Shown: piece by piece, positions 28,338 through 43,611 of the stretch
Layout of the letters: each line of letters begins with the position of its first letter
How positions within the stretch are numbered: position 1 is the stretch's first letter
Assembly (NCBI GenBank): GCA_913060865.1
Contig: CAJXTU010000005.1
Location: forward strand, 62,001-126,000
Reading direction: 5' to 3'
Length of the DNA stretch: 64,000 bases
From: an uncultured Cycloclasticus sp.
GTDB lineage: Bacteria > Pseudomonadota > Gammaproteobacteria > Methylococcales > Cycloclasticaceae
The notes under the pieces: model-generated
Told to the model about the DNA's origin: nothing
Database searches by the model: none
The model's input: the letters and a program-made list of their open reading frames with translations, nothing else
Made by a program: the position numbers and the translations under genes

Positions 28338-29912
28338 CTACTCAAAATCCCATGGCACCGAAAGGCGACCGTCTTTGAACATTGCTTGGATTTCTTTTTT
28401 AAGTACTTTGCCCGTTAGCCCTTTTGGCAAGTCATCTATTAAAACAAGTGCTTTCGGCACTTCAAACTTTGCCATTTTTGATTTGCTGAAAGCAAGAATA
28501 TCGTCGGTATCGAATTCATTTTTATTCGTTGGAATAATCACTGCAACAACCGCCTCATCCCAATCAGGGTGTGGAACCCCAACAACCGCCACTTCTTTAA
28601 TTTGTGGGTGCTCATCAAGTACATTCTCTACCATACTTGGGAAAACATTAGCGGAACCGGTAATAATAAGGTTATTTTTTCGATCAGTTAGATAAAGAAA
28701 GCCTTCTTCATCTATATATCCCATATCATTAGTACACAGCCAGCCACCTTGTAAGGCTTCTTTAGTTTGCTGCTCTAGGCCCAAATACCCGATCATTAAG
28801 GTGTCTGATTTGACCCATACCTCGCCGGTACTACCAGCGGCACAAACTTTATGGTTTTTATCACGAATTTCAACATCAAAGTGTAGGGCAGGTCGACCAC
28901 ATGACCGCAACAAGTGCTCCTCTCCATTTAGCCCTCTTAGCGTATCTTCAGGTGGCATAACACTTATCCAGCCCCCGGTCGTCTCGGTCACACCATACAT
29001 TTGCGCCAAATCACATTTAAATATCTCGGCTGCTTTGCGTATCAATTGTGGTGTTGTGGGTGAGGACCCATAGGTAATTAGCCGGACAGATGGCAACTCC
29101 ACGCTATCTCTTTGCATAATTTCAATTAATCGGCGCATCATAATCGGCACCATAATGGTTACCGTTACTTTGAATCGGTTAATGTCATTAAAGTAGCGTT
29201 GCACTTCAAAGTCGCCCTCGGGTAGAACCACCGTCATGCCATTGACACTGTTCATGGTAATAAGCACAAAGGTTATCCATGCTGAGGATGTTGGCGCATA
29301 CCACACATCGCTTGGGGTTAAGCCCATATTCAACACTGTGTGCATCATCGCTTCCCTTAACCCAAGCTGAGACAGCATAACGCCTTTTGGTGAGCCCGTG
29401 GTTCCCGAGGTATAACTTAACGCGGCCATGTCTTGCCCATCAATAGCTGGGCTATCGACAAGCCCATCACTCGCGGCTAATAGTGTTTCGTAATCGTAGG
29501 GTAACGAGTGTTCGCCGCCATATCCAATTAAAATAATGCCTTCTTCAATGAGCTGCTGTGGCAAGTGCCCCATCAGCTCTACACAGTTTGCTTGAACCAT
29601 GATCACTCGTGCTTCTGAGTCATGAATCACATGTAACATTTCTTTTGGTGAAAAACGCCAATTAATGCCAACTCTAGGTGCACCTAATTTTAGACAGCTA
29701 TGAAAATGCTCATATACTTCAATATGCTCATGCGACAATATAGCCACCACATCGCCTTTGCTAACGCCTTTATCTTGTAGCGCTTTAGCAAATAAATCGG
29801 ACCGTTTATTCAAATCATGCCAGGTAATTGACCGATCACCTTCATAAAAGGCAACTTTTTTGGGCATAGCTTTCGCCGCTCGTACTAAAAAATCTCTTAC
29901 TAACGCTGTCAT
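28338..29912 (-). CDS. AMP-forming acyl-CoA synthetase/ligase
   Basis: A 524-residue ANL-superfamily ligase. The P-loop is YTSGTTGSPKGVMLS. Further motifs are MYGVTETTGG, GEVWVKSDTLMIGYL, NDMGYIDEEGFLYLTDRKNNLIITG split by the hinge Asp, and the catalytic Lys in PKGLTGKVLKK. It activates a carboxylic acid as its CoA thioester. As the last gene of the alkB operon, 4 bases overlapping the DUF35 gene, it probably supplies the CoA ester used by the thiolase-fold protein. The substrate is unknown. Confidence 0.92.
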   Translation of the reverse strand: MTALVRDFLVRAAKAMPKKVAFYEGDRSITWHDLNKRSDLFAKALQDKGVSKGDVVAILSHEHIEVYEHFHSCLKLGAPRVGINWRFSPKEMLHVIHDSEARVIMVQANCVELMGHLPQQLIEEGIILIGYGGEHSLPYDYETLLAASDGLVDSPAIDGQDMAALSYTSGTTGSPKGVMLSQLGLREAMMHTVLNMGLTPSDVWYAPTSSAWITFVLITMNSVNGMTVVLPEGDFEVQRYFNDINRFKVTVTIMVPIMMRRLIEIMQRDSVELPSVRLITYGSSPTTPQLIRKAAEIFKCDLAQMYGVTETTGGWISVMPPEDTLRGLNGEEHLLRSCGRPALHFDVEIRDKNHKVCAAGSTGEVWVKSDTLMIGYLGLEQQTKEALQGGWLCTNDMGYIDEEGFLYLTDRKNNLIITGSANVFPSMVENVLDEHPQIKEVAVVGVPHPDWDEAVVAVIIPTNKNEFDTDDILAFSKSKMAKFEVPKALVLIDDLPKGLTGKVLKKEIQAMFKDGRLSVPWDFE

Positions 29913-30337
29913 GACTTATCTCCATCCAGTACTTGAAAATACAAGAGTTCATTTTTATCGTTTATGGTTTTATAACAGGCTCTAACGGGTGAGCCAACGC
30001 TATATTCTTGGCCAGAATTGGTTTCTATATGCCCCATCACACGCGGCCCCTCGTCTAACTCAACCAGCGCAACCGTGTAAGGTACTTTGTCATCATAGTA
30101 AGGGTGAAAACTTCTATGAAAAACAACATAACTGTAAATAATGCCTGTTCCTTTTGCTTCAATCCATTCGAGTTTGTTGTTTCCGCAGTGGTCACAGGTA
30201 ATGCGGCCGGGTGCTTGGAATGTTTGGCAGGCAAGACACTGCTGAATCAATACTTTATGTTGTTGCATACCGTTATAAAAGGGCTTAGCAACATCCGGTA
30301 CCACTGGCCAAATAACGCCTTCTTTTGGATATTCCAT
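29909..30337 (-). CDS. DUF35 zinc-ribbon/OB-fold protein
   Basis: A 142-residue protein with an N-terminal helix, a zinc ribbon made of two CxxC pairs (QQCLACQTF and ITCDHCGN) and an OB-fold (GTGIIYSYVVFHRSFHPYY to SVGSPVRACY). DUF35 proteins pair with thiolase-fold enzymes. In the Ltp2-ChsH2 complex of steroid side-chain degradation such a domain is needed for aldolase activity. The gene lies 8 bases after the thiolase-fold gene, which supports a complex of the two products. Confidence 0.92.
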   Translation of the reverse strand: MEYPKEGVIWPVVPDVAKPFYNGMQQHKVLIQQCLACQTFQAPGRITCDHCGNNKLEWIEAKGTGIIYSYVVFHRSFHPYYDDKVPYTVALVELDEGPRVMGHIETNSGQEYSVGSPVRACYKTINDKNELLYFQVLDGDKS

Positions 30338-30345
30338 AATGTCCT

Positions 30346-31509
30346 CTATTGGCCCATAATTAAAGCGGCATGAAACTGCATTCTGCCGCCATAACCCGTT
30401 ACTAACATATTGTCTAATTGACTAAGTTGTCGCTCACCCGCCCTATTACGTAACTGCATAATCGCTTCTGAAACAGGTGTAGCCCCTTGCATATAGTAGG
30501 ATGACAAATGACCACCTCCAGTATTAACCGGCAATTCCCCACCCGGGCCAATACCTTTTTCAGCAATAAATTCAGCGGCTTGTCCCGGCGGACAAAAACC
30601 ATACATTTCAAGGTTGACTAAGGTTGAAATACTGAACGCATCATAAAACTCACAGGCCTTAATATCACTTGCGGTAATACCGGCCATTTTATACGCTGTT
30701 TCACCAGCCATACGTGCGCCTGTTTCAATTTCTGGCTGAAAACCACGTCTATTAATATTACCGGCGTGGCCCTGCCCCATCCCATAAATATAAGCCGCAG
30801 GCTGCGGATGTTCTTTAGCCAAGCTGGCCTCACTAACAACAACGGCAATCGAGCCATTAACAGGATAAGCACAATCTAGCATTCGTAGAGGTTCCACCAA
30901 CCAAGGTGACGCATGATGGTCTTCTAATGTCATCGGTTTACGTATTTTTGCCAGTGGATTCAGCATAGCCCACTGTCTATTGGCTATCGCCACGGCTGCA
31001 AAATCATCCGTTGTCCTGTCGTAAACCGCTAAATAACGCTGAGCAGCCATCGCATAAGCAGCAATAGCACTATAAAATCCATTCGCGACTTCTATCCCAA
31101 GTTGCCCCATCATTGGCATCGCAATGGCAAAAGACTCTGCCGCTGATATATCGGGTCTTAGGGGTGTATCAGCAAATACGCACACAATTTTTTTCGCCAA
31201 ACCCGATTTAATGGCCATCGTTGCTTGCTGCAACGTTTGCACCATTGAGCTGCCCTCGGCTTCGACGACATTCAGTAAGTTTAGACGACTTAAACCCGCA
31301 TAGTCTTGCAAATCCATCGGTAAGGCAGATAGGTCTTCTATGGGGCTTTTATTAATTAACAAGCCATCAATGTCTTGGTGTGTTAACCCTGCATCGTCTA
31401 TGGCTAAGCCAATGGCCTCAACTGCTAACTGCCATGACGCAACCGTATAATCACGCCGCAACTCCGTCATGCCCAGCCCGATAACGGCTGATAAAGGATC
31501 CCTACTCAT
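30346..31509 (-). CDS. Thiolase-fold protein lacking catalytic Cys/His, Ltp2-aldolase-like
   Basis: A 387-residue SCP-x/lipid-transfer-type thiolase homologue. The position of the nucleophilic Cys reads E85-G86-S-S-M. The usual GHP catalytic His reads S-Y338-Y339-M in NTGGGHLSSYYMQG, and the C-terminal CxG is absent (VTGYGGRM). Claisen thiolysis is therefore unlikely. Steroid-pathway aldolases such as Ltp2 also lack the thiolase nucleophile and rely on Tyr residues, so retro-aldol cleavage of a beta-hydroxyacyl-CoA is the better guess. It lies between Rieske beta (4-base gap) and DUF35 (8-base gap). Confidence 0.85.
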   Translation of the reverse strand: MSRDPLSAVIGLGMTELRRDYTVASWQLAVEAIGLAIDDAGLTHQDIDGLLINKSPIEDLSALPMDLQDYAGLSRLNLLNVVEAEGSSMVQTLQQATMAIKSGLAKKIVCVFADTPLRPDISAAESFAIAMPMMGQLGIEVANGFYSAIAAYAMAAQRYLAVYDRTTDDFAAVAIANRQWAMLNPLAKIRKPMTLEDHHASPWLVEPLRMLDCAYPVNGSIAVVVSEASLAKEHPQPAAYIYGMGQGHAGNINRRGFQPEIETGARMAGETAYKMAGITASDIKACEFYDAFSISTLVNLEMYGFCPPGQAAEFIAEKGIGPGGELPVNTGGGHLSSYYMQGATPVSEAIMQLRNRAGERQLSQLDNMLVTGYGGRMQFHAALIMGQ

Positions 31510-31513
31510 ATAA

Positions 31514-32008
31514 CTAGATCAAAAAAGACAAGGTTGATATAGGCTCCAGTGCGTTCACTAAGACAATTTTCTTACTGTGTATCTGGAAGCTATCTCCTTT
31601 GCGACTTACGATATAGGTATATCGACCAGACCAAATTCTAAAATCATGTGTCGATTGAATCGAATACTCGGGTAAATAGAAGTTCGCTTCCACCCTAAAC
31701 TTGTCATCACTTTCACCAAAAAACTCGTAGTTTGAAATCACTCGACGCATCCCAGAAATAGGAACTTGGCTAAATCGATTACCGGTATTGAGCTGTTTAA
31801 TCCTGGTCGTTAATCTTGAATAGTTATCATACAAATGTGACGCTTTATGCGCTGGGTCGTCCCCATCTTTGAGTGGTACCCAATAAACGGCATCGTCTGC
31901 CCACAATTCATACCATGCTTGATATTGGCCTTCATCTGCATATTTGGCTTCTTGAATAATGAACGCTTCAAGCTCTCTTGTTACCTCAAATGCCACTGAA
32001 TTACTCAT
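31514..32008 (-). CDS. Ring-hydroxylating dioxygenase beta subunit
   Basis: A 164-residue small subunit. The N-terminal helix VTRELEAFIIQEAKYADEGQ is followed by YQAWYELWADDAVYWVPL, and the pattern FRIWSGRYTYIVSRKGDSFQIHSKKIVLVNA is typical of the family. It starts one base after the alpha stop codon, so alpha3 and this subunit most likely form the alpha3-beta3 enzyme of this operon. Confidence 0.92.
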   Translation of the reverse strand: MSNSVAFEVTRELEAFIIQEAKYADEGQYQAWYELWADDAVYWVPLKDGDDPAHKASHLYDNYSRLTTRIKQLNTGNRFSQVPISGMRRVISNYEFFGESDDKFRVEANFYLPEYSIQSTHDFRIWSGRYTYIVSRKGDSFQIHSKKIVLVNALEPISTLSFLI

Positions 32009-32009
32009 G

Positions 32010-33251
32010 CTACTTCTCTCCCAACATCATTGAGCGATAATGGTGCCAAAAACCTCTGTTTGAGGTTTCGTCACTCATACGAGATTCTTTAACGCCATCC
32101 TCTCTAACAATTTCTCTATCAATGCCTCGGCTTAAATCACACCAAGGCGTACCCGCTTGAAGTGCCTTTTGAGCTCGTTCAGCAATGGTTGCATCATCCG
32201 CCAATAAAAAAGCGGCTGGCCCTAATGCGCCTTCACTTTGCCTTAATAATTTAAAGTTCAACTCTGGCACACCCTTTAAAAACATCGGTGTACTCCATTG
32301 CACACAAGAATTAACACTTGTTGGCTGGAAGATAACAATATTCATTTCTGCTAAAAACAAGTTTGGGAAAATACAGGAGTGTGGAGGCCCATCAAACATC
32401 CGCCTATCCCCTTCTTCTTCACCATAAGCCGCATGCATTTTTTCAACATACGATTTAGACTTCTCAACCGTTGAACCCAGCCAGTCCAATGTATTGACAT
32501 ACCCAGCGGCAAAATCAATTTCTGTATGCCCATTGCCCCAGTCTCTTATCACACCCTTATTAGTATCTTCGCCACCCACAAACTCGTTATATTGAGAAGG
32601 AATAACTTGAACAAATGATTGGTGAACATAGTTTACATGGTAGCCATCGGTATCATTCTCTGGAAGCATTTTCCAATTCGCATCAAACTTTTGACGTACC
32701 CAGCCTCCCGTTAAATCTACCTCACCCTCTGGTGATAAATTACACGCACGGTCAATTAACTTTTTGCCATTCCCAAGATAGTCATCAAAACTCCTTGTTG
32801 GCTCTTTAAAACTTGCAAAAACGAAACCGCGATAACTATCGGTCACTAGCTTCTGTAAACCATGGTCTTTTTTATCCTTAGTAAAGCCATCAGGGTAAGG
32901 AACATCTAATAAATCACCATTTAGAGCAAAAACCCACCCATGATATAAACAAGAAAAGTTGCGTTTATTACCGTCCATTTCATTACATAAATTATTCCCA
33001 CGGTGGGAACAGCGATTCACCAATACATTCACTGTATTGTCTTTATCTCGAACCATAATGACAGCTGAACGACCTATATCCCTTGAAACAAAGTCTCCCG
33101 CCTCTTTTATCTCGCTTTCATGCCCGACATAAAACCAGCTGTTTTGAAAAATTTTTTCCATTTCATCAGCATAAATATCTTCTGATGTATATAACGAACC
33201 GTGAACTTTGTCCGCTTGAATCAAGTGGTTATAATCTATACTTCCTATCAT
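32010..33251 (-). CDS. Ring-hydroxylating oxygenase alpha subunit in the alkB operon
   Basis: A 413-residue catalytic subunit. The Rieske site is C81-x-H83-x17-C101-x2-H104. The mononuclear site is in ENDTDGYHVNYVH, with bridging Asp202 and ligands His205 and His210. The overall pattern is closer to benzoate/toluate-type 1,2-dioxygenases than to naphthalene dioxygenase, judged by eye. Its beta subunit follows directly. An AGGAGAG ribosome site precedes the ATG. With AlkB before it, the pathway may hydroxylate both an alkyl group and a ring. Confidence 0.93.
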   Translation of the reverse strand: MIGSIDYNHLIQADKVHGSLYTSEDIYADEMEKIFQNSWFYVGHESEIKEAGDFVSRDIGRSAVIMVRDKDNTVNVLVNRCSHRGNNLCNEMDGNKRNFSCLYHGWVFALNGDLLDVPYPDGFTKDKKDHGLQKLVTDSYRGFVFASFKEPTRSFDDYLGNGKKLIDRACNLSPEGEVDLTGGWVRQKFDANWKMLPENDTDGYHVNYVHQSFVQVIPSQYNEFVGGEDTNKGVIRDWGNGHTEIDFAAGYVNTLDWLGSTVEKSKSYVEKMHAAYGEEEGDRRMFDGPPHSCIFPNLFLAEMNIVIFQPTSVNSCVQWSTPMFLKGVPELNFKLLRQSEGALGPAAFLLADDATIAERAQKALQAGTPWCDLSRGIDREIVREDGVKESRMSDETSNRGFWHHYRSMMLGEK

Positions 33252-33316
33252 TTCGCTCTCCTATTTAAGCCTGATATTGAAAACAAGGCTATCACTTCGT
33301 ACCATGTTTTGACGCT

Positions 33317-34519
33317 CTACTTACCAGCAATTACGGCTCTTTCGACAAAGCGCTCTGGCAAGGTGTTTGGTAACGCATAAGGTACGATATCCGCTGTGTC
33401 ATAAAACTCTTCAATAATTGGGTGCATGATTTTTCTCCATAAAGGAGGAACCATCGTTACAAATAAGATATTGAGGTAACCTAAAGGTAGGCGTGGTGCT
33501 TTTTCCATCACCCTTAATACTTGATATGGCCGCCCAACATTCGCATGATGATCAGAGTGTCGATCAATTTGACACATAAAGAAACTACTTATAATCATGC
33601 TGTCATCCCAAGCATGTTCTGGCCTCACTTTTTCGTAACTACCATCTTCGAGCTGCTTACGCATTAGACCGTAGTGCTCTGCAAAATCTGCGGTCGCTAA
33701 AAGCATTCTTGGGAAAAGGTATTGCATAATGAACAAAGGTAGTGAAATCCAACCAAAGAGATAAACCAATAGTGAAAACCATGAGATTTGTGCAATGGTT
33801 ATTTTGATCATTTTATTATCAATATTAAACCAACTTGAACCCTTACGGCCAAGACGCTCAGCTTCTACTTTCCACGCTACAATGGATTTTTGGACAATGC
33901 TCCGCCCTGCAAAACGCCAGAAATTCTCACCATATGGGGATGTTGCAGGGTCTAGCGGTGTCGCTACGTGAATATGGTGATGGAAGTTATGATAGACGTA
34001 GAAGTCGGCCATGCTTAGCGGCGTCATGAGTGCTTGCCCCATAAAACGATCAAATTTATTTCCATGATGGCAGAGCTCATGCCCAGGCGTTGCACCAAAT
34101 GCTGTAACAAGACCCAATGAAATAGCTAAGCCAATCATTTCCGCTGTTGTTAACGCATGGTAATTAACACCCAATACGGTAAACATCTCCATGGGGGTAT
34201 TGCTAATCAATGAATAGCCAAACAAGGTAATTAAAAATTGAATGGGAATATATATCCAGAGCATAAAGCGGTAAAAAATGCTTTGCTCCAAATCTTTTTC
34301 CATCTCAGCAGGCGCGTTAATGGGATCATCACCCACTATCGGGTCAAGAATCATACAGATAACAAACGCCGCAACGGTCAGCCAGTACCAATATCCACCA
34401 CCTAAGAAGTGCGCTACAACTGGCGTTGTGGCAAAAAGTAATATAGGTATCGTTGTGAAACGGGTCACTATGCTAACTTTTCGTTTAATAGTCTCTGGGG
34501 CATTCACTGTGGGAAACAT
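33317..34519 (-). CDS. alkB: AlkB-type alkane/alkyl-group monooxygenase
   Basis: A 400-residue membrane di-iron hydroxylase that puts an OH on a terminal methyl group. All histidine boxes are present: HELCHHGNKFDR, YHNFHHHIHVATPLDP (EHNxGHH in P. putida AlkB), DFAEHYGLMRKQ (AlkB signature NYIEHYG) and RHSDHHANVGRPYQ. About six hydrophobic segments occur. It needs rubredoxin and rubredoxin reductase, which are not in the window. It is the first gene of a six-gene operon and has a strong AAGGAGAGAG ribosome site. Confidence 0.93.
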   Translation of the reverse strand: MFPTVNAPETIKRKVSIVTRFTTIPILLFATTPVVAHFLGGGYWYWLTVAAFVICMILDPIVGDDPINAPAEMEKDLEQSIFYRFMLWIYIPIQFLITLFGYSLISNTPMEMFTVLGVNYHALTTAEMIGLAISLGLVTAFGATPGHELCHHGNKFDRFMGQALMTPLSMADFYVYHNFHHHIHVATPLDPATSPYGENFWRFAGRSIVQKSIVAWKVEAERLGRKGSSWFNIDNKMIKITIAQISWFSLLVYLFGWISLPLFIMQYLFPRMLLATADFAEHYGLMRKQLEDGSYEKVRPEHAWDDSMIISSFFMCQIDRHSDHHANVGRPYQVLRVMEKAPRLPLGYLNILFVTMVPPLWRKIMHPIIEEFYDTADIVPYALPNTLPERFVERAVIAGK

Positions 34520-34563
34520 TCTCTCTCCTTTGCATCATTAAGTTGCATTTATATTTTTTATTG

Positions 34564-34569
34564 ATTATA
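34564..34569 (-). promoter_or_regulatory. Candidate -10 element of the alkB operon
   Basis: The minus strand reads TATAAT about 45 bases before the alkB start, which would leave a leader of nearly 40 bases. No good -35 hexamer stands out, so activation by a regulator is possible. The region is AT-rich and divergent to the hydrolase gene. Confidence 0.35.
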
Positions 34570-34716
34570 ACCACTTGTACAAACTGAACGCTAGTTAGAA
34601 TCAATCATTTTTATAGATATAAATCATTTTCCTATCCAAAATATTTTTCTTAAAACTAACTTTCTTAACTATATTTTAGATACCATAACTACAAACTTTT
34701 TATATCAGGAATCAGC

Positions 34717-35565
34717 ATGCAGACATCAAATATTCAAACAGGTTCTTTTCAGACTTTTTTAAATGAAACGGGCATCGAAAACGATACCTGTATTTTATTA
34801 CTGCACGGTTCTGGCCCGGGTGCTAACGCTATGTCAAACTGGCATTATGCATTGCCTTTTTTAGCCGAAAACTACCATTGCCTTGCACCTGATATTGCAG
34901 GTTTTGGCCTTAGCCAGCACGATTCTCCGCCAAACGGAACCAGTCAATGGATTGATGTTTGGGTTCAGCAACAAATAGATTTATTAGACGCTAAAGGCAT
35001 CGAACAAGCACATATTGTCGGCAACTCTATGGGTGGCGGCGTTACCTTACACCTACTAAATAGACACCCCGAACGTTTTAAGAAAGCCGTTCTTATGGGC
35101 CCAGTTGGCGCACCCTTTGAACCCACTGATGGCCTTACTAAAGGATGGGAGTTTTATAAAGACCCCTCCAAAGAAACTTTAGAGTACTTAATTACTAAAT
35201 TCCTTTTTGACCCAAGCTTACTGGGCGATGATATTGCCAGCATAGCTGCTCAACGGTTCGATAACGTTATGAAGGATGAGGTACGCGTTCAGTTTGAAGC
35301 CATGTTTAGCGGCGGAACGAAAAAAGGTATTGATGCCTTTGTTTTATCCGATGAAGAACTAAATAATATCCCCCATCAAATGCTAGTCACCCATGCACGT
35401 GAAGACTTTTTTATTCCACTCAATAATGCATATCACTTAATTGAGAGAATTCCAAAAGCGCAATTACACGTGTTTGACCATTGCGGCCATTGGATACAAA
35501 TTGAAAAGAAAAAAGCGTTTAATAATTTAACTAAACTATTCTTTGATGGTGCTTTTGATGACTAA
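34717..35565 (+). CDS. Alpha/beta hydrolase, meta-cleavage product hydrolase type
   Basis: A 282-residue hydrolase of the BphD/TodF/XylF group, which cleaves C-C bonds in ring-fission products. The oxyanion-hole motif LLLHGSGPGANAMSNW is diagnostic. The nucleophile is in GNSMGGG (Ser near residue 110), the acid is in THAREDFF and the His is in FDHCGHWIQIEKK. It is read divergently from alkB and convergently with the NagG-like alpha gene. No matching extradiol dioxygenase is adjacent; the LigB-like gene at 3059 is far away. Confidence 0.9.
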   Translation: MQTSNIQTGSFQTFLNETGIENDTCILLLHGSGPGANAMSNWHYALPFLAENYHCLAPDIAGFGLSQHDSPPNGTSQWIDVWVQQQIDLLDAKGIEQAHIVGNSMGGGVTLHLLNRHPERFKKAVLMGPVGAPFEPTDGLTKGWEFYKDPSKETLEYLITKFLFDPSLLGDDIASIAAQRFDNVMKDEVRVQFEAMFSGGTKKGIDAFVLSDEELNNIPHQMLVTHAREDFFIPLNNAYHLIERIPKAQLHVFDHCGHWIQIEKKKAFNNLTKLFFDGAFDD

Positions 35566-35676: not shown

Positions 35677-36927
35677 TTAAAAGCCCATCATCTCTCGATA
35701 CCCTTGCCACATTGAACGAATCATTCCTTCTGTGACTAGGTGCTTTGCTCCTTCAGGCTCTTTACCATCCATCTCTATCACGCTGGTGTACTCCCCATCC
35801 CGAACTATCGCTTTTTGACATAGCTCTGTTGATTCCCCATCTTCCATTGAAATCAACCCAGCCGGTCCGATAAGGTTAAATTGCTTTAAACGAATATTGC
35901 GAAGTTCTTCGGTGTCATCTTTATAACCAAAGTAAGTCCAGACCAACTCAAATTCATCTTTACCTTTAGGCAGAATCTGACGAAAAGCTAGGGTGTTCTG
36001 AATTTGCTGTAACACTAGCGAAGGAAACATCGATAATATATCCAAGCTATGTCCGTCTTCAAACTCCTGCTGGCCTGCCAGTAAAGACTCATCTGCCAAT
36101 GCATAATTTCCTTGTTGCATCGTTCTAAGGTTCTCTTTCTTAACATCGTCCAGAGCACTTTTCTTTTCTTCAGAACTCTTAACCCAAATTAAACAATGAA
36201 CTTTATTATTAACGATTGATTCACCTTGTTGAGATGAGCGGTACAACCCAAAGGTGGCATGAAAGAGGTGTAGCAAACTTGCATGGTAAGGATCTTTGGT
36301 ATTTTCTGCATAAAACTTCCAGTTCCCTTTAATATGTTGCCGAGTGGTACCGAGTATTTCAATCGGCCTATTTAAAATTCGGCGCATGTGATAACTCACA
36401 TCATCACCCATATAGTCTTCAATATCGGGAGTTTCTTCGCTGAACGTTCCAAAAATGGCACCATGATAATTAACCGTACGCACTTTCCTTAAGCTGTGTT
36501 TAGTTTTATCAAAGTCTTTAGGCATCCCACCTTTACCACCCAACCCACGCTGAAAGGGAACTCCCCTTAAATCACCTTTCGCATCAAATGACCACTGGTG
36601 ATAAACACAGGTATAGGCGCCGTCTTCCTTACGCCCATGGCGTTCACGACAAATTTCAGCCCCCCTATGCGCGCAACGATTTACCCAAGCGTATATTTCA
36701 TTATCTTGGCCTCGTGTTACAACAACAGGCGTATCCCCTATATATGTTGATTTAAAGCTCCCCTTATCGGGGAGCTCTTCTTCAGCGGCTAAAAAACACC
36801 AGGTTTTTCCGTTATAAATTTTTTCCTGTTCAAGATCATAAACCTCTTGGCTATTAAAAACCGAATACGGTACGGCAGTACAACTTGCATCCGCAGGCCA
36901 CTTTAGGTGATCAGCTGTACTACCCAT
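35677..36927 (-). CDS. NagG-like Rieske oxygenase alpha subunit without an adjacent beta gene
   Basis: A 416-residue alpha subunit. The Rieske site is C85-x-H87-x19-C107-x2-H110 and reads CVYHQW where most relatives have CxYHGW. This and VPFQRGLGGKGGMPKDFDK are seen in salicylate 5-hydroxylase (NagG)-type subunits. The mononuclear site ENTKDPYHASLLH has Asp212, His215 and His220. Substrate may be a salicylate- or anthranilate-like acid; this is inferred from family resemblance. It is the last gene after four transport genes, and no beta subunit lies next to it. Confidence 0.9.
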   Translation of the reverse strand: MGSTADHLKWPADASCTAVPYSVFNSQEVYDLEQEKIYNGKTWCFLAAEEELPDKGSFKSTYIGDTPVVVTRGQDNEIYAWVNRCAHRGAEICRERHGRKEDGAYTCVYHQWSFDAKGDLRGVPFQRGLGGKGGMPKDFDKTKHSLRKVRTVNYHGAIFGTFSEETPDIEDYMGDDVSYHMRRILNRPIEILGTTRQHIKGNWKFYAENTKDPYHASLLHLFHATFGLYRSSQQGESIVNNKVHCLIWVKSSEEKKSALDDVKKENLRTMQQGNYALADESLLAGQQEFEDGHSLDILSMFPSLVLQQIQNTLAFRQILPKGKDEFELVWTYFGYKDDTEELRNIRLKQFNLIGPAGLISMEDGESTELCQKAIVRDGEYTSVIEMDGKEPEGAKHLVTEGMIRSMWQGYREMMGF

Positions 36928-36996
36928 AAAAGTACTCCATTATAAAACGTTCAAAAACCAGCCATTAACAATCTTGTTCGCTTTGTCCGTACCGAA

Positions 36997-39366
36997 TTAT
37001 GATTCGGATTGCACCTCTTCTTTTTGCTCATCAAGCGGGTAAAGAAAACTAGCCAGTGCAGGAATAAGAATAATCGCGCCCAACATATTAACGAAGAACA
37101 TATACGCCAACAGGATACCCATATCTGCCTGAAATTTAAGGTCTGAAAAGTACCATGTAGCTACGCCAAGCGTCATCGTTACGGAGGTAAAAACAACCCC
37201 TGTCCCTACTTCTTTTAACGACTCGTAGTATGATTTCTGTAACGATTCACCCGCAGATTTATGCGCCACCATTCTAGCGAAAAGGTAAATACCATAATCC
37301 ACCCCAACACCAACACCCATGGCCAATACAGGCAGGGTAGACACTTTTAAGCCGATACCTAGATGAACCATCACTGCATTGGCTAAATAAGCAACGAGCG
37401 CCAACGGAGCGACGATACAAATAGTAGCTCGAATAGACATAAACGTTACAAAACAGAACAAACCAACCGCAGCAAATAGGATCAATTCAATTTTAGTTTG
37501 CGCTTTAGCCACAATCTCATTAGTCGCCGCCATAATGCCTGCATTGCCCATCGCTGGTACGAAAGTAACGTGTTCGTTTGTATTACTTTCATTGAAGCGG
37601 GCAACTGCATCCATTACTCGATCTAAGGTCTCTGCTTTATGGTCCGTCAAATAAATGGTCACTGGCATAATCGTGCAATCATTTGAAAATAGCGCTTGAG
37701 ACATCTCCACTCTATAAATATTTGCTGAAATCATTTTCTCATTGCGAGGAATACCCAAAAACTTAGGGTTGGCTTCATAATTGCCGATATTCCTTTCACG
37801 AATCACCTGAGACAAGGCTTTAACAGACTGTACACCTTCTACATTTTTAAGCTGCCAAACAAAGTCATCAATGGTTTGCATAATATTGAAATTAACACAG
37901 GAACCTTTTTCATCTGCCTTCGCTAAAATCACCAGTTCATCCAAACCAACCGAAAACTTAGACTGTATTGCATCCGCATCTTGGTTGTATCGCGCTTCAG
38001 GCCAAAACTCGGGTGCCCCAGCCTCTACATCACCCACGATTAATTGATCTTGCACAGACATGGCATAGATCCCTAAGCCAGCGGCTAAGACTAGAATAAT
38101 GGCTGCATTTTTACGTTTAGTAAACTGCGATAACGCCATCCAAAAAGCATGATCTGTGCCCTTAATGTTACTCTCTGCACGCTTAATTTCCTTATCGTTT
38201 AGTTTTATATAAGATAAAAGAATGGGCAGCATAATTTTATTAGTCAGCAGCATCACCGCCACACCAATACTCGCAATAATGCCGAGTTCTCTAATGATAG
38301 GGATATCAATTAATACAATAACGCCGAAGCCAACCGCATCGGAAATAAGTGCCGTTGCGCCGGGAATAAAGAGCTTATAGAAGGCCTGACGCGCTGATTC
38401 TACCGAGCTATCGCCCTTTGCTACGCCCAGTCGCCAAACGTTGGTCATTTGAATAGCGTGGCTTACGCCTATCGCTAGAATAAGGAATGGAACCAATATC
38501 GACATCGGGTCTACACCATAACCCAATATTTTTACGATTCCCAGCTGCCAACTCACCGACACCAGCGCGGTAATAATAACCGCCACCGCTAGCTTGATTG
38601 AGCCTGCAAAAAAGACCAATAAAACAAATGTGATAATCAAGGTAATAATGAAAAAACCTATAACACCTTCTGCGCCATTAATAACGTCACCAATAAAAGG
38701 TGCAAACCCAATGATATGAATAGCCATTGAATCAGTTTGATAGGTATCCCTAATTTTACTGAGCCTTTCAGCAAACACTTCATAATCAATTTTTTGTTTT
38801 GTTATCGGATCAATTTCTACCAAATCAGCAATAACCAGCGCGCCAGATAAGTCTTTAGCTACCGTCTTACCAATTTCAGAAGATTTAAACAGGTTGCTTT
38901 TAACCTCTTCGATACGCTCCATTGTCGCAATAAAATCTGCTGGCACAATTTTGGAGCCCGTAAAACCTTCTTCGCTTACTGCAACATAATTAACATTGGG
39001 TGTAAAAAGAGAGGTCACTGTTCGTGCATCCACGCCATCCATCACGAGAACATCCGAGGTGATTTTCTCAAGAACCGTAAAAAATTCTGGGGTGAACATA
39101 TCACCATTCTTATTTTCTACAAAAATAGTTACCCGGTTCGCGCCACCAAATTCATCACGGTGGTCAGTAAATGTTTTCATATAAGGATGTGATAAAGGAA
39201 TCGCTTTATCAAATCCCGGTGAAAGCTGCTGATTAAGCCCTTGATATGCCAAAAATGCCGTCAGCAATATACCTATCGTTAAAATAACTAGCCGATGGTT
39301 TAATAAACCATCGGCTAGAAAATTTGAAATTTTATGGACTAAATTAGATTCATGTTTCATTGTCAT
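36997..39366 (-). CDS. RND/MMPL-family transporter (HpnN-like)
   Basis: A 789-residue inner-membrane permease with two repeats. Each has a large periplasmic loop and a block of about six helices. The charged/polar helix motifs are GVSHAIQMTNVWRLG in the first half and GVGVDYGIYLFARM in the second. MMPL/HpnN-like RND proteins move lipids and other hydrophobic molecules between the inner membrane and the periplasm. The gene follows the propeller gene by 16 bases and precedes the NagG-like alpha gene. Confidence 0.9.
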   Translation of the reverse strand: MTMKHESNLVHKISNFLADGLLNHRLVILTIGILLTAFLAYQGLNQQLSPGFDKAIPLSHPYMKTFTDHRDEFGGANRVTIFVENKNGDMFTPEFFTVLEKITSDVLVMDGVDARTVTSLFTPNVNYVAVSEEGFTGSKIVPADFIATMERIEEVKSNLFKSSEIGKTVAKDLSGALVIADLVEIDPITKQKIDYEVFAERLSKIRDTYQTDSMAIHIIGFAPFIGDVINGAEGVIGFFIITLIITFVLLVFFAGSIKLAVAVIITALVSVSWQLGIVKILGYGVDPMSILVPFLILAIGVSHAIQMTNVWRLGVAKGDSSVESARQAFYKLFIPGATALISDAVGFGVIVLIDIPIIRELGIIASIGVAVMLLTNKIMLPILLSYIKLNDKEIKRAESNIKGTDHAFWMALSQFTKRKNAAIILVLAAGLGIYAMSVQDQLIVGDVEAGAPEFWPEARYNQDADAIQSKFSVGLDELVILAKADEKGSCVNFNIMQTIDDFVWQLKNVEGVQSVKALSQVIRERNIGNYEANPKFLGIPRNEKMISANIYRVEMSQALFSNDCTIMPVTIYLTDHKAETLDRVMDAVARFNESNTNEHVTFVPAMGNAGIMAATNEIVAKAQTKIELILFAAVGLFCFVTFMSIRATICIVAPLALVAYLANAVMVHLGIGLKVSTLPVLAMGVGVGVDYGIYLFARMVAHKSAGESLQKSYYESLKEVGTGVVFTSVTMTLGVATWYFSDLKFQADMGILLAYMFFVNMLGAIILIPALASFLYPLDEQKEEVQSES

Positions 39367-39382
39367 AGCTTCTATCCTTGAT

Positions 39383-40333
39383 TTAATCCGTTAGTTGTTT
39401 AAGTGACATTTTTTGTACCCCGCCCGCCATCGACGCCAAATAGGCAGAATCGCCGAGTACCGTCACAGCGGTATAATCAACTCGACTTGGATCTTCTATC
39501 GCTTTGACTAATTCACCTTTATCGTCGAGTACTAAAATAACCCCTCCACGACCGACAACGAGTACCCGCTTATTATCAGAAGTTGCGACTGAGTCCAATA
39601 AAAACTGGTCTGTTCCCGTATGAATTTTTGTCCACTCTAAAGAGGAGGGGCTTATTAAGTATAAATGCCCACTCATACCAAAAACCAAGTATTGATTAGC
39701 TATTACATTAACGCCAAAAAAGGAACCTTCATAAGGCGATGGAACTGTCTGCCAATCAGTTAAGCCATCTTCAGAATAAAAAATGCCACCACGTTCGGCA
39801 ACAACGAGAGCAGTTTTTTCAAGTTTCTCAATGGCAAATAAATGATTCTGATACCACTCTTCTACTGATAATATTGTGAGTTTCCATGATTTTCCGCCAT
39901 CTTCTGTCACTCTCAACTCACCATCGGTACCCAATACATAACCCTGAAGTGGATTGACAAAATTGACCGACATGTAAAATCGCTCTTCCTCGGGTTTATA
40001 TTGGTTTATCGTCCATGTCGCCCCGCCATCAACCGAATGTAAAATGGTCGACTCATGACCAACAATCCAACCGTCTGTTTTAGAGGAAAATGATATCCCT
40101 GTCAGGGTCACATCCACTGGTGATTTAATCTGACTCCATGACATGCCGCCATCACTCGAGCTTAATATAATGCCTCGCTCTCCAACGGCAAAAACCTTTT
40201 CTTCATGTTCTTCCAAATCAAGGAAGATAGCTTTCGTTGATAACGGCAGCTCCTGTGCTGGCCTAGCGACTGTTTCTGCAAACGCATAACCACCTACCAA
40301 TAGAGACAAGCACAAAATAATTCTTAACATCAT
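39383..40333 (-). CDS. Exported YCF48-like beta-propeller protein
   Basis: A protein of 316 residues with a signal peptide (MMLRIILCLSLLVGGYAFA). It then has repeats of the BNR/YCF48 type: ILSSSDGGMSWSQI, ILHSVDGGATWTI, LRVTEDGGKSWKL and IFYSEDGLTDW. YCF48/Hcf136 proteins are assembly factors, but bacterial homologues are often partners of RND transporters. The start at 40333 is preferred to a TTG at 40354 because AGGAAATAAA precedes it and the signal peptide then starts properly. It is likely periplasmic. Confidence 0.85.
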   Translation of the reverse strand: MMLRIILCLSLLVGGYAFAETVARPAQELPLSTKAIFLDLEEHEEKVFAVGERGIILSSSDGGMSWSQIKSPVDVTLTGISFSSKTDGWIVGHESTILHSVDGGATWTINQYKPEEERFYMSVNFVNPLQGYVLGTDGELRVTEDGGKSWKLTILSVEEWYQNHLFAIEKLEKTALVVAERGGIFYSEDGLTDWQTVPSPYEGSFFGVNVIANQYLVFGMSGHLYLISPSSLEWTKIHTGTDQFLLDSVATSDNKRVLVVGRGGVILVLDDKGELVKAIEDPSRVDYTAVTVLGDSAYLASMAGGVQKMSLKQLTD

Positions 40334-40355
40334 TTTATTTCCTATAAATTTCAAT

Positions 40356-40389
40356 AAAAAGACCGAGGCTAAATTTTCTAGCCTCGGTC
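40356..40389 (-). terminator. Intra-operon terminator or attenuator
   Basis: A perfect 11-bp GC-rich stem (GACCGAGGCTA and its complement, 7-base loop) is followed on the minus strand by TTTTT. It lies between the DUF1329 and YCF48-like genes of one operon and could reduce read-through to the propeller, permease and oxygenase genes. Confidence 0.85.
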
Positions 40390-40422
40390 CTAATCTAATT
40401 ACCTAAAACAACATTATGATGA

Positions 40423-41886
40423 TTATCTACGTCCAAATTTTCTTAGGCCTTGAGGAGTGAAAATCTCAACGTTATATTCAATCTCCGCTGCTTTAGATAC
40501 AATCTTAGGTCCACCTAAACCCAGATCCTTACCTGCTTGGAACTGCCAGTTAGGAAATGTAGTGTAACGACCATTGATCAAATCAACCTGCACATCACCT
40601 ACAGCACGCGTGATATTTGGGCCATAAAAGAATACGTTGTATTGCTCACCCACACGCCATAAACGATCTTTCGCATCGTAGGCTTCAAAGGCTAGACCAA
40701 TCCATGAGTCTTCATCAAAATAAGCTGTATGACGCTTATATAGGTGGCGTTGACCTGCTTTCAGCGTTGAGTCTACAACCCATACACGGTGTAATTCATA
40801 ACGAATTAAGTCTTGGTTAATATGATCCTCACCAAAAATTTCGTCATAAGGCATATCCGCATTCGTTAGCTTATAATTGTTATACGCTACAAATAACTCT
40901 TTACGCACAGGCTTCGAATATTCATGTCTAGGATAGCTTCCACCAAACCAATGCATCCAGCGACTTGCAACAGTACGCTGACCATCAGAACCAAAAGAAG
41001 GACTATCATGGAAACCGATTTCTGGCGCCTTTCTTACTCGGCGTTGACCAGGAATATAGAGATACACCTGAAAGTCGTAGTTATCAACAAAGTTACAGCC
41101 GCCAAATACTAAGCCAGAAGAACGAGGTGGTTTCTCAATCTGCCATGAATCACACAAGAGCGCACCCTTGTCTCGCTTCATCCACTTTGAGTCCTTCATA
41201 CCATCGCCAACTTGCGCCCACCAAGGCCATGTTTGGCGTTGACGAACCACCACATCAGTTCTGCCGCCATATGAGTCTACTAAGGCTCCATTACCCGCTG
41301 TGTCTATCGACAAGCCTCTAAATGCCATGTAATGATTCCATGCCGCCTCTTCACCTGTTTTAGGAATGGGGAAAGGTATGCCGCCGCCTTCAATATGGTC
41401 ACTCAAGCAAATACGGCCTTTTTCAGCATAGTCTGGACAAATCTTTACATTTTTTGCCTGCGCCAGGGTTGCATCATAAACCCAAGGATCATTCGCACCA
41501 GTTCTATGTGTTGGATACACATGCATACGGAATGATTCAGGGTATTGCTTAAACATACCTACCTGACCCGGTGTCAGCTTATCTGCATACTCTGTGTAGT
41601 TTGCTGCTGTGATGGTAAATAGCGGCTTTTCGTCTGCAAATGGATCCGCCAAACTATCACCATAGCCATTTGCCACACCTTTAATAGGTTCACTATTCCA
41701 CTCAGGTATAGTCCCATCAGCATTTCCAGCACGAATCGCACCTGATGGAGTTAGCTCTGTTCCACTAACGCCCAGTTTTGCCATTTCATCTGCGTTTAGT
41801 TGCGCTAATGCAATGCCTGGTAACAAGGCCGCTGATAACACAACTGCCATCTGTTTCTTTATTCTTGATGTTAAAAATTTCATCAT
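40423..41886 (-). CDS. DUF1329 periplasmic/outer-membrane-associated protein
   Basis: A 487-residue exported protein with a signal peptide ending near IALAQLNADEM. Family signatures are LTPSGAIRAGNADGTIPEW, PFADEKPLFTITAANYTEYADKLTPGQ, FRMHVYPTHRT and YELHRVWVVDSTLKAGQRHLYKRHTAYFDEDSW. DUF1329 is related to LolB-type lipid-binding folds, suggesting it carries lipophilic cargo in the periplasm. It starts 42 bases after the DUF1302 gene. Confidence 0.9.
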   Translation of the reverse strand: MMKFLTSRIKKQMAVVLSAALLPGIALAQLNADEMAKLGVSGTELTPSGAIRAGNADGTIPEWNSEPIKGVANGYGDSLADPFADEKPLFTITAANYTEYADKLTPGQVGMFKQYPESFRMHVYPTHRTGANDPWVYDATLAQAKNVKICPDYAEKGRICLSDHIEGGGIPFPIPKTGEEAAWNHYMAFRGLSIDTAGNGALVDSYGGRTDVVVRQRQTWPWWAQVGDGMKDSKWMKRDKGALLCDSWQIEKPPRSSGLVFGGCNFVDNYDFQVYLYIPGQRRVRKAPEIGFHDSPSFGSDGQRTVASRWMHWFGGSYPRHEYSKPVRKELFVAYNNYKLTNADMPYDEIFGEDHINQDLIRYELHRVWVVDSTLKAGQRHLYKRHTAYFDEDSWIGLAFEAYDAKDRLWRVGEQYNVFFYGPNITRAVGDVQVDLINGRYTTFPNWQFQAGKDLGLGGPKIVSKAAEIEYNVEIFTPQGLRKFGRR

Positions 41887-41928
41887 TTCTCCTAAAATCT
41901 TTTTAATAAGGTACGCTTTTCGCCGGTC

Positions 41929-43611
41929 TTAAAACGAATAGCTAATATTAGCTTGAACAAAGTCGCGGTCTGTACGACCATTCAAACGACTACCCGCTTG
42001 ATTAACCATCGCTTCTGCTCCATCAAACATGGTCCAACTAACGCCACCCGTCCACGTGCCACCACCGTAGCCAAAGTTCGCACCTACTGTTAACGCTTTT
42101 CTATCATCTACAAACAAAGGAACAATCTCGTTAGATACACCATCTACGTCATATTTAAATGCAATAAAAGGAGACACTGAAGCAACATTAAATAATGCTG
42201 CCTCGTACGTAAGTGATTGTTTGACCTGAAAGCCCCAAAAGTGCTCGGTTACTTGAGGGGTAAATACAGATCTAAACCCTCCACCAATAGGCTCATTTTG
42301 CTCTGGCAAACCATCAACCCAACCATAGGCCACTTCAGCTAAGGTGCTATTAGCATCTGCACCCATAAAGCCAACACCCCAAATACGTTGAAACGTCATT
42401 TGTAATTGATGACGATCAACAAGTTCATAACCTTTTTGGTAATCACCAGGAGCGCAGCCATCACATGCTATACCAAATAACCCGCCCCCTGCACCAGCAA
42501 GGCCATTTAGCACAGGCGCAGTCATTTGAATTGGAGCATCTTTACGTACATGGTATTCACCAGCAACAACCCAGCCTTCTATATTGGTATTAAATGAAAT
42601 TCCCAAACGTTCAATATTTTCTACATATTCTAAAAAGAATGCACCCGTATTGTAATAAGTAGAGATCATTGGTACGTGGTCATGAAGGTTTTGATAATAA
42701 ATAGCGATTTCACTGCCATTAAACAAGTTTGGGAAAAATTTTCTTATGGCTAGGCCGTATTGGCCACCTTTAGCGGCTCTGTCTCCGACCCTAACTAAAT
42801 TACCACCAACAAGTCCACAATCATCTAGGCCATCAGGCGATTGACATGACCCTAGTGGCGTGCCAAATGGCCCAGGAAGGTTCTCCCCTACAACACCATC
42901 ACCATCACTATCAAAACCACCGCCAGCACCGACAGCATCCAAGGTTGTCCAAAATGAACCCGCTGGATCTAACTGAATTTGATCAAATTCAAATAGGTAA
43001 AAAGACTCAATCGTCCATTCATCATCAACATTCCATGAAACATAAGCTGCATTTGTACCAATAAACGCATCCTTAAGTGCTCGACCAGGCTGCCTTAGTT
43101 TATTTAAGTCAACGGTATTAATGTCATTAATTGAGCCTTGAATAAAGGTATTCTCACCCCAACTAATCACCTGTTTACCAAGCCTAATATTGACTTGGTC
43201 GTTATCACCAAAATAGCCATAGACCATTAAATCTGTAAGCGAAAAGTCTCGTGCTAGTTTGTCATGCGCTTTGTCTGCTAAGTTTTCATTATCATAAACA
43301 TGATCGTAAAAATAGTTACCCCGCGCAAGCATGCCAAAATCACCATACTCTAAACTTAGCGTACTCGAACCACGAATAGCATTACTAAAGATGTCTCCCG
43401 CATCCTTAAACGCTCTGTTACCGGCAGCGCCCATCTTGTCATGATCAGCATCTTCTGTACGAGCTGCAATGGCATAGGTTAAATCTGTATCAAGCGCTCC
43501 TCTAAGTTTGCCTTTATTAAAGCTAAACGCTTGTGCCGTCCCGATTTGGGACAATAATAGTGCCGAGCTGAGTGCAATACCCGCGCTCGATTTTATAATC
43601 GATTTCTTCAT
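41929..43611 (-). CDS. DUF1302 outer-membrane protein
   Basis: A 560-residue protein with a signal peptide (to about residue 28, AQAFSFNKGKLRGALDTDL) and many alternating beta strands. NIRLGKQVISWGENTFIQGSIND is the DUF1302 signature, and the C-terminal NISYSF ends in the Phe expected for insertion into the outer membrane. Family members pair with DUF1329 proteins in many proteobacteria that use hydrophobic carbon sources. It is the first gene of the operon and is probably its outer-membrane pore. Confidence 0.9.
   Translation of the reverse strand: MKKSIIKSSAGIALSSALLLSQIGTAQAFSFNKGKLRGALDTDLTYAIAARTEDADHDKMGAAGNRAFKDAGDIFSNAIRGSSTLSLEYGDFGMLARGNYFYDHVYDNENLADKAHDKLARDFSLTDLMVYGYFGDNDQVNIRLGKQVISWGENTFIQGSINDINTVDLNKLRQPGRALKDAFIGTNAAYVSWNVDDEWTIESFYLFEFDQIQLDPAGSFWTTLDAVGAGGGFDSDGDGVVGENLPGPFGTPLGSCQSPDGLDDCGLVGGNLVRVGDRAAKGGQYGLAIRKFFPNLFNGSEIAIYYQNLHDHVPMISTYYNTGAFFLEYVENIERLGISFNTNIEGWVVAGEYHVRKDAPIQMTAPVLNGLAGAGGGLFGIACDGCAPGDYQKGYELVDRHQLQMTFQRIWGVGFMGADANSTLAEVAYGWVDGLPEQNEPIGGGFRSVFTPQVTEHFWGFQVKQSLTYEAALFNVASVSPFIAFKYDVDGVSNEIVPLFVDDRKALTVGANFGYGGGTWTGGVSWTMFDGAEAMVNQAGSRLNGRTDRDFVQANISYSF

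Follow-up and report, generated by a model that had tools for sequence, protein, structure and literature searches.

A known-type AmeABCD-like transporter cassette followed by an orphan Rieske oxygenase alpha gene in one Cycloclasticus lineage

Background

How hydrocarbons and their intermediates move across the envelope of obligate PAH degraders is poorly known. The closest described system is AmeABCD of Castellaniella defragrans, which consists of a DUF1302 protein, a LolA-like DUF1329 protein, a COG4447 (YCF48-like) protein and an HAE3 RND permease, encoded in that order; its authors reported that gene order and composition are conserved across the lineage (PMC6394551). Deletion of AmeABCD lowered monoterpene tolerance and raised Nile Red accumulation, the mutant grew normally on functionalised monoterpenes, and the two Castellaniella strains showed nearly equal Nile Red efflux in real time (PMC6394551). 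The same families are split in P. putida between PP_0765/PP_0766 and PP_2018/PP_2019, and both loci are needed on Tween20 (PMC10866462). In a benzene-degrading consortium, the proteins of a 'Nanopod' cluster were abundant during anaerobic benzene degradation (ORM2a, PMC13101534). For Cycloclasticus, a transposon screen of strain P1 for PAH growth, which was not exhaustive, mapped 22 genes, including OmpW, OmpT and two permeases and none described as DUF1302, DUF1329 or RND (PMC8547461). Papers on gene expression in C. pugetii PS-1 and on the ecology of Cycloclasticus contained nothing on these genes.

Gene content of the locus

The window analysed here is a stretch of 64,000 nucleotides (C5:62001-126000) from a Cycloclasticus genome of 2.43 Mb in 39 contigs. 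The genome has 22 ring-hydroxylase alpha and 19 beta matches, which is expected for a PAH specialist. Five intact minus-strand ORFs follow one another in the order A-B-C-D-R, and the features of the locus are as follows.

41929..43611, minus strand: A, DUF1302 outer-membrane porin-like barrel, AmeA-like (PF06980, 385 bits; AlphaFold barrel)
40423..41886, minus strand: B, DUF1329 periplasmic LolA-like protein, AmeB-like (PF07044, 346 bits; model)
40359..40391, minus strand: hairpin between B and C, terminator/attenuator-like (15 pairs, then a TTTATTG tail)
39383..40354, minus strand: C, YCF48-like exported beta-propeller, AmeC-like (PF14870, YCF48/PSII_BNR, 113 bits)
36997..39366, minus strand: D, RND/HAE3 (MMPL) inner-membrane permease, AmeD-like (PF03176, 101 bits; TIGR00921)
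35677..36927, minus strand: R, orphan Rieske oxygenase alpha, aryl-carboxylate group (Rieske and Ring_hydroxyl_A domains; AndAc, 547 bits)
34717..35565, plus strand: HsaD/BphD-like hydrolase, convergent with R and the landmark of the empty site in G008 and G004

The spacers measure 42 (A-B), 16 (C-D) and 69 (D-R) bases, while the B-C spacer depends on the YCF48 start (68 with TTG, 89 with the internal ATG). The five genes, their order, strand and gaps agree with the first-pass annotation, whose gap of 89 is the ATG version. The signal peptides, barrel C-terminus and permease motifs that it listed are also visible, namely signal-peptide-like N-termini on A, B and C, the barrel end ...ANISYSF on A and the GVDYG motif in TM10 of D.

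For the DUF1302 barrel, the sequence search for solved relatives gave no match, and for DUF1329 it gave weak matches only; since it provided no useful solved relatives, structure models were made for A and B. For A, AlphaFold gave a porin-like barrel with low to moderate confidence (pLDDT 64.5); porins are its top PDB matches. The model of B is confident (pLDDT 89.3) and contains a LolA-like half-barrel at residues 174-487, which matched LolA3 (9tp6) with Z 19.1 over 236 residues at 3.0 A and the small DUF1329 protein 4z48 with Z 17.2. C matched YCF48 structures with E about 1e-20. The top NCBIfam model for D was HAE3 TIGR00921, matched over the full length with 139 bits (cut-off 352).

Compared by family and order, A-D have the same four families as AmeABCD in the same order and likewise adjoin hydrocarbon-catabolism genes; D resembles the HAE3 permease, scoring under the model's cut-off. 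The context of AmeABCD is monoterpenes, however, and no Rieske gene is described behind ameD. The P. putida proteins also comprise DUF1302, DUF1329, a periplasmic protein and an efflux-type permease, which share a growth phenotype and are predicted to interact, but they are encoded at two separate loci, are tied to Tween20 growth and have no accompanying oxygenase. In the ORM2a 'Nanopod' cluster, a porin-like protein, DUF1329, a YCF48-like protein and an MMPL permease are again tied to an aromatic hydrocarbon, whereas the organism is an anaerobic member of the Desulfobacterota, the cluster has additional stress proteins and the oxygenase is missing. Because A-D have the families and order of AmeABCD, a function has already been published for such a set, even though transport direction is contested. 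On families and order, A-D belong to the known AmeABCD type of tetrapartite transporter, and the five-gene set should not count as a new system; the earlier statement that no function had been described for the combination does not hold for its A-D part (PMC6394551; related systems in PMC10866462 and PMC13101534). We consider it likely, with a probability of about 0.75, that the locus combines an AmeABCD-type transporter with a separate, duplicated orphan alpha. The direct basis of this reading is gene content, order and distribution, the hairpin, the missing beta gene, and the conserved catalytic and carboxylate residues.

Distribution of the cassette and of R

A close homologue of D was found in 45 of the 369 genomes searched, two of them Cycloclasticus. 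The loci outside the genus belong to distant gammaproteobacteria; a permissive tblastn placed C upstream of D at 28/28 of them and detected B at 26/28. At 21 of these loci the sequence continues for about 1.4 kb or more past D, and none of the 21 has a Rieske alpha there. Within the genus, nine genomes carry an orthologous cassette, defined by an RND identity of 82% or more. R lies behind D in four of these nine loci (the genome of the window, G000, together with G001, G015 and, at a contig edge, G003). Between glmU and the acyl-CoA ligase, G008 and G004 keep the gene order of the window and lack only R; blastn and tblastn found no trace of an R remnant in the corresponding gaps (310 and 173 bp). 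In G005, G011 and G013 the orthologous cassette is relocated, R is absent and another gene is next. The more distant G009 and G017 have a related cassette without R, and that of G009 adjoins acyl-CoA genes, while the sequence read there contains no Rieske gene.

Since R is missing at sister loci and outside the genus, it does not belong to the conserved set. R is a lineage-specific passenger attached behind a known cassette, not a part of the machine. The first-pass annotation had proposed a single five-gene operon for uptake (or export) of an aromatic or lipophilic compound, with delivery at the inner membrane to the Rieske oxygenase. Its idea of a trans-envelope set that recurs and handles hydrophobic compounds stands for A-D and fails for R; among the loci examined, the five-gene order occurs at the four Cycloclasticus loci above and at 0/21 informative loci outside the genus. 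The orthologous loci of close relatives (G008, G004, G005, G011 and G013) lack the oxygenase, which is the result that the annotation itself had named as refuting it. The locus offers a natural experiment, with closely related cassettes that do and do not carry the oxygenase.

The gene found in the place of R encodes a Porin_O_P-like outer-membrane protein in G005 and G011 (L083:12774-14132 and L088:12375-13730) and a similar 451-residue protein in G013 (L089:12281-13636).

Other cassettes and their Rieske neighbourhoods

Two further cassettes are present in the genome of the window. The second (L093:3654-17288, contig C1) has the co-oriented order C-D-(barrel position)-B-B', followed by a PQQ-cytochrome dehydrogenase, a Rieske alpha, a beta and an SDR; the protein at the barrel position has no Pfam match and was placed by position only. 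The third (L095:6205-15215, contig C2) has the order C-D-A-B followed by same-strand Rieske alpha and beta genes, and a terminator-like hairpin and 300 bp lie between its DUF1329 gene and the oxygenase genes. In two complete genomes, 5/9 (G008) and 3/3 (G015) DUF1329 genes had a ring-hydroxylase alpha gene no more than 10 kb away, compared with 7% and 11% expected for random places. Because catabolic genes cluster in general, this proximity describes a neighbourhood and not a mechanism.

These neighbourhoods, together with the co-orientation and short gaps of A-B-C-D-R, are what the five-gene uptake operon has in its favour. Against it stand the absence of R from sister loci and from every informative locus outside the genus, the lack of a beta gene adjoining R, the membership of R in the aryl-carboxylate group, a terminator-like hairpin inside the set, and the hairpin and 300 bp that precede the oxygenase genes on C2. 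We regard that operon as improbable. Coupling between transporter and oxygenase may nevertheless be real at the genus level: the proposed Rieske link persists in the C1 and C2 cassettes, which lie upstream of alpha-beta pairs, but not for R itself, which is lineage-specific.

A conserved hairpin between B and C

The hairpin between the DUF1329 and YCF48 genes (40391-40359, minus strand), which the first-pass annotation does not mention, has 15 pairs, a T-rich tail and a z of -4.4. It is present in all 11 Cycloclasticus cassettes examined (L082-L092), two of which are only distantly related. Among the nine close cassettes the stem sequences vary, while 72/72 cells are paired and both-sided compensatory changes occur at pairs 4 to 8; in these nine, neither the A-B nor the C-D spacer held a comparable hairpin. 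Outside the genus, a B-C hairpin was found in 6/26 loci with a usable spacer under a strict rule, which indicates a Cycloclasticus feature rather than a family-wide one. Terminator-like hairpins also lie behind the DUF1329 genes of the C1 and C2 cassettes.

A conserved terminator-like hairpin inside the set makes 'one operon' doubtful, and the single-operon claim is weakened to that extent. The hairpin fits either partial termination, with A-B expressed above C-D, or separate transcription units; behind B, it would probably lower or separate C-D expression relative to A-B. The order of the A-B and C-D halves is swapped in the other cassettes of this genome, and the two halves are separable in P. 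putida (PMC10866462). This conserved internal hairpin, which splits an outer (A-B) from an inner (C-D) half, and the orphan alpha are the most original points of the locus.

Between D and R, no terminator was seen in G000, G001 and G015, and a strong terminator-like hairpin separates the two genes in G003. As R and D are co-oriented and 69 bp apart with no terminator between them in the first three genomes, R may be transcribed with D, and it may have become functionally linked to D in that lineage.

Identity and orphan state of R

The closest full-length structure matches of R are TphA2 and 7vju, followed by NagG. Against the NCBIfam model of the AndAc anthranilate 1,2-dioxygenase (NF041684), R scored 547 bits, under the equivalog cut-off of 750. 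R has full-length similarity to the TphA2/AndAc/NagG group, and both the Rieske CxH..CxxH motif and the 2-His-1-Asp iron site are present. R316 aligns with TphA2 R309 (chain position 311), the group-wide arginine that binds the substrate carboxylate, and the TphA2-specific R390 is replaced by Leu. In its full-length match, iron ligands and substrate-carboxylate arginine, R resembles TphA2, AndAc and NagG; unlike these alpha-beta enzymes, it has no adjoining beta gene. Chains of the naphthalene-dioxygenase type match only about the first 230 residues of R, and R was rejected as a hydrocarbon dioxygenase of that type.

Given its place in the aryl-carboxylate group and the retained arginine, R probably oxidises a soluble aromatic acid, not a hydrocarbon. 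Its substrate is most likely an aromatic monocarboxylate, predicted from the family and this one residue to be a late intermediate rather than a hydrocarbon. The group to which R belongs also makes a direct hand-over of hydrocarbon to the oxygenase at the inner membrane, as first proposed, unlikely.

The three full-length R sequences form a single clade (support 100/100), which lies beside two other Cycloclasticus clades that are about 80% and 75% identical; the best named relative of R, at 94% identity, comes from an uncultured Cycloclasticus MAG. For all 10 alpha genes checked in the two related clades, a beta gene lies upstream at a distance of no more than about 70 bp. No beta gene adjoins R, and the nearest one, 3.7 kb off, belongs to another oxygenase; an adjacent beta gene is usual for the aryl-carboxylate group but not strictly defining. 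Selection on R is strongly purifying (dN 0.03-0.05 vs dS about 1 or more). A pseudogene was rejected, as the ORF is intact and dN/dS is well below 1. With no beta gene nearby and purifying selection acting on it, R is probably an orphan alpha that borrows a beta subunit, and we infer that it probably works with a beta, a ferredoxin and a reductase made elsewhere. R would represent a duplicated aryl-carboxylate alpha that came to lie behind D, without its beta gene, in one Cycloclasticus genome set.

The assembly apparently breaks inside close paralogues of R (C1:1, C38:1, the end of C5, and C35 in G000), so that their copy number is uncertain; the beta genes of these paralogues seem to be placed at the ends of C5 and C35.

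A further possibility is that the alpha was recruited into the AmeABCD unit, where it would act on a compound delivered or left behind by the transporter with the help of a distant beta, and where the internal terminator would set the ratio of outer to inner components. We find this doubtful, and prefer the reading of a known transporter with a separate orphan alpha.

Proposed role and direction of transport

As a known transporter, A-D would carry a hydrophobic compound between inner membrane and cell exterior. A would be the porin-like barrel in the outer membrane, B a LolA-like periplasmic carrier with a fold that binds hydrophobic ligands, C a propeller in the periplasm, probably keeping the complex assembled, and D the HAE3-like RND permease. 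In a hydrocarbon degrader, the likeliest role of the cassette would be to regulate how much of a hydrocarbon or catabolic intermediate the membrane carries. For the direction, AmeABCD would favour export and the P. putida growth phenotype would favour uptake.

The cassette might be purely an exporter of toxic hydrocarbons or intermediates, with R separately consuming an aromatic acid of the same pathways. This has a substantial but less than even chance. Increased Nile Red accumulation, reduced monoterpene tolerance and normal growth on functionalised monoterpenes in the AmeABCD mutant agree with export (PMC6394551), whereas P. putida requires its homologues for growth on Tween20 (PMC10866462), and the two Castellaniella strains hardly differed in Nile Red efflux followed in real time (PMC6394551). 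The Tween20 phenotype and the near-equal efflux speak against a purely exporting cassette.

A somewhat more tentative alternative is an uptake route for a hydrophobic growth substrate, leading from the barrel through the LolA-like carrier to an inward-working RND protein, with R incidental. It is consistent with the Tween20 growth phenotype of P. putida (PMC10866462), with the abundance of related 'Nanopod' proteins during anaerobic benzene degradation (PMC13101534) and with the catabolic neighbourhoods of the cassettes, one of which has acyl-CoA genes as neighbours and no Rieske gene within the sequence read. However, the cited literature contains no demonstration of RND import in this lineage, and no DUF1302, DUF1329 or RND gene was among the 22 mapped in the non-exhaustive PAH-growth screen of P1 (PMC8547461).

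Further observations

A search of viral contigs with the RND protein D gave no match. Ser-His in TM4 and Asp-Tyr in TM10 are present in 40/40 aligned RND (D) proteins (residues about 291-316 and 677-706 of the D protein in the window). Many MMPL proteins have an acidic pair in TM4 where the D set has Ser-His. On the strength of this alignment, the SH/DY signature is a possible mark of this RND (AmeD) branch.

The catabolic block adjoining the cassette (window 28338-35565) contains an AMP ligase, an OB-fold and thiolase-like pair, Rieske alpha-beta genes, a hydroxylase of the fatty-acid-desaturase family (AlkB/XylM-like) and the HsaD-like hydrolase. The block is linked to the cassette in five genomes, and the hydroxylase sits on a separate contig in G005 and G013.
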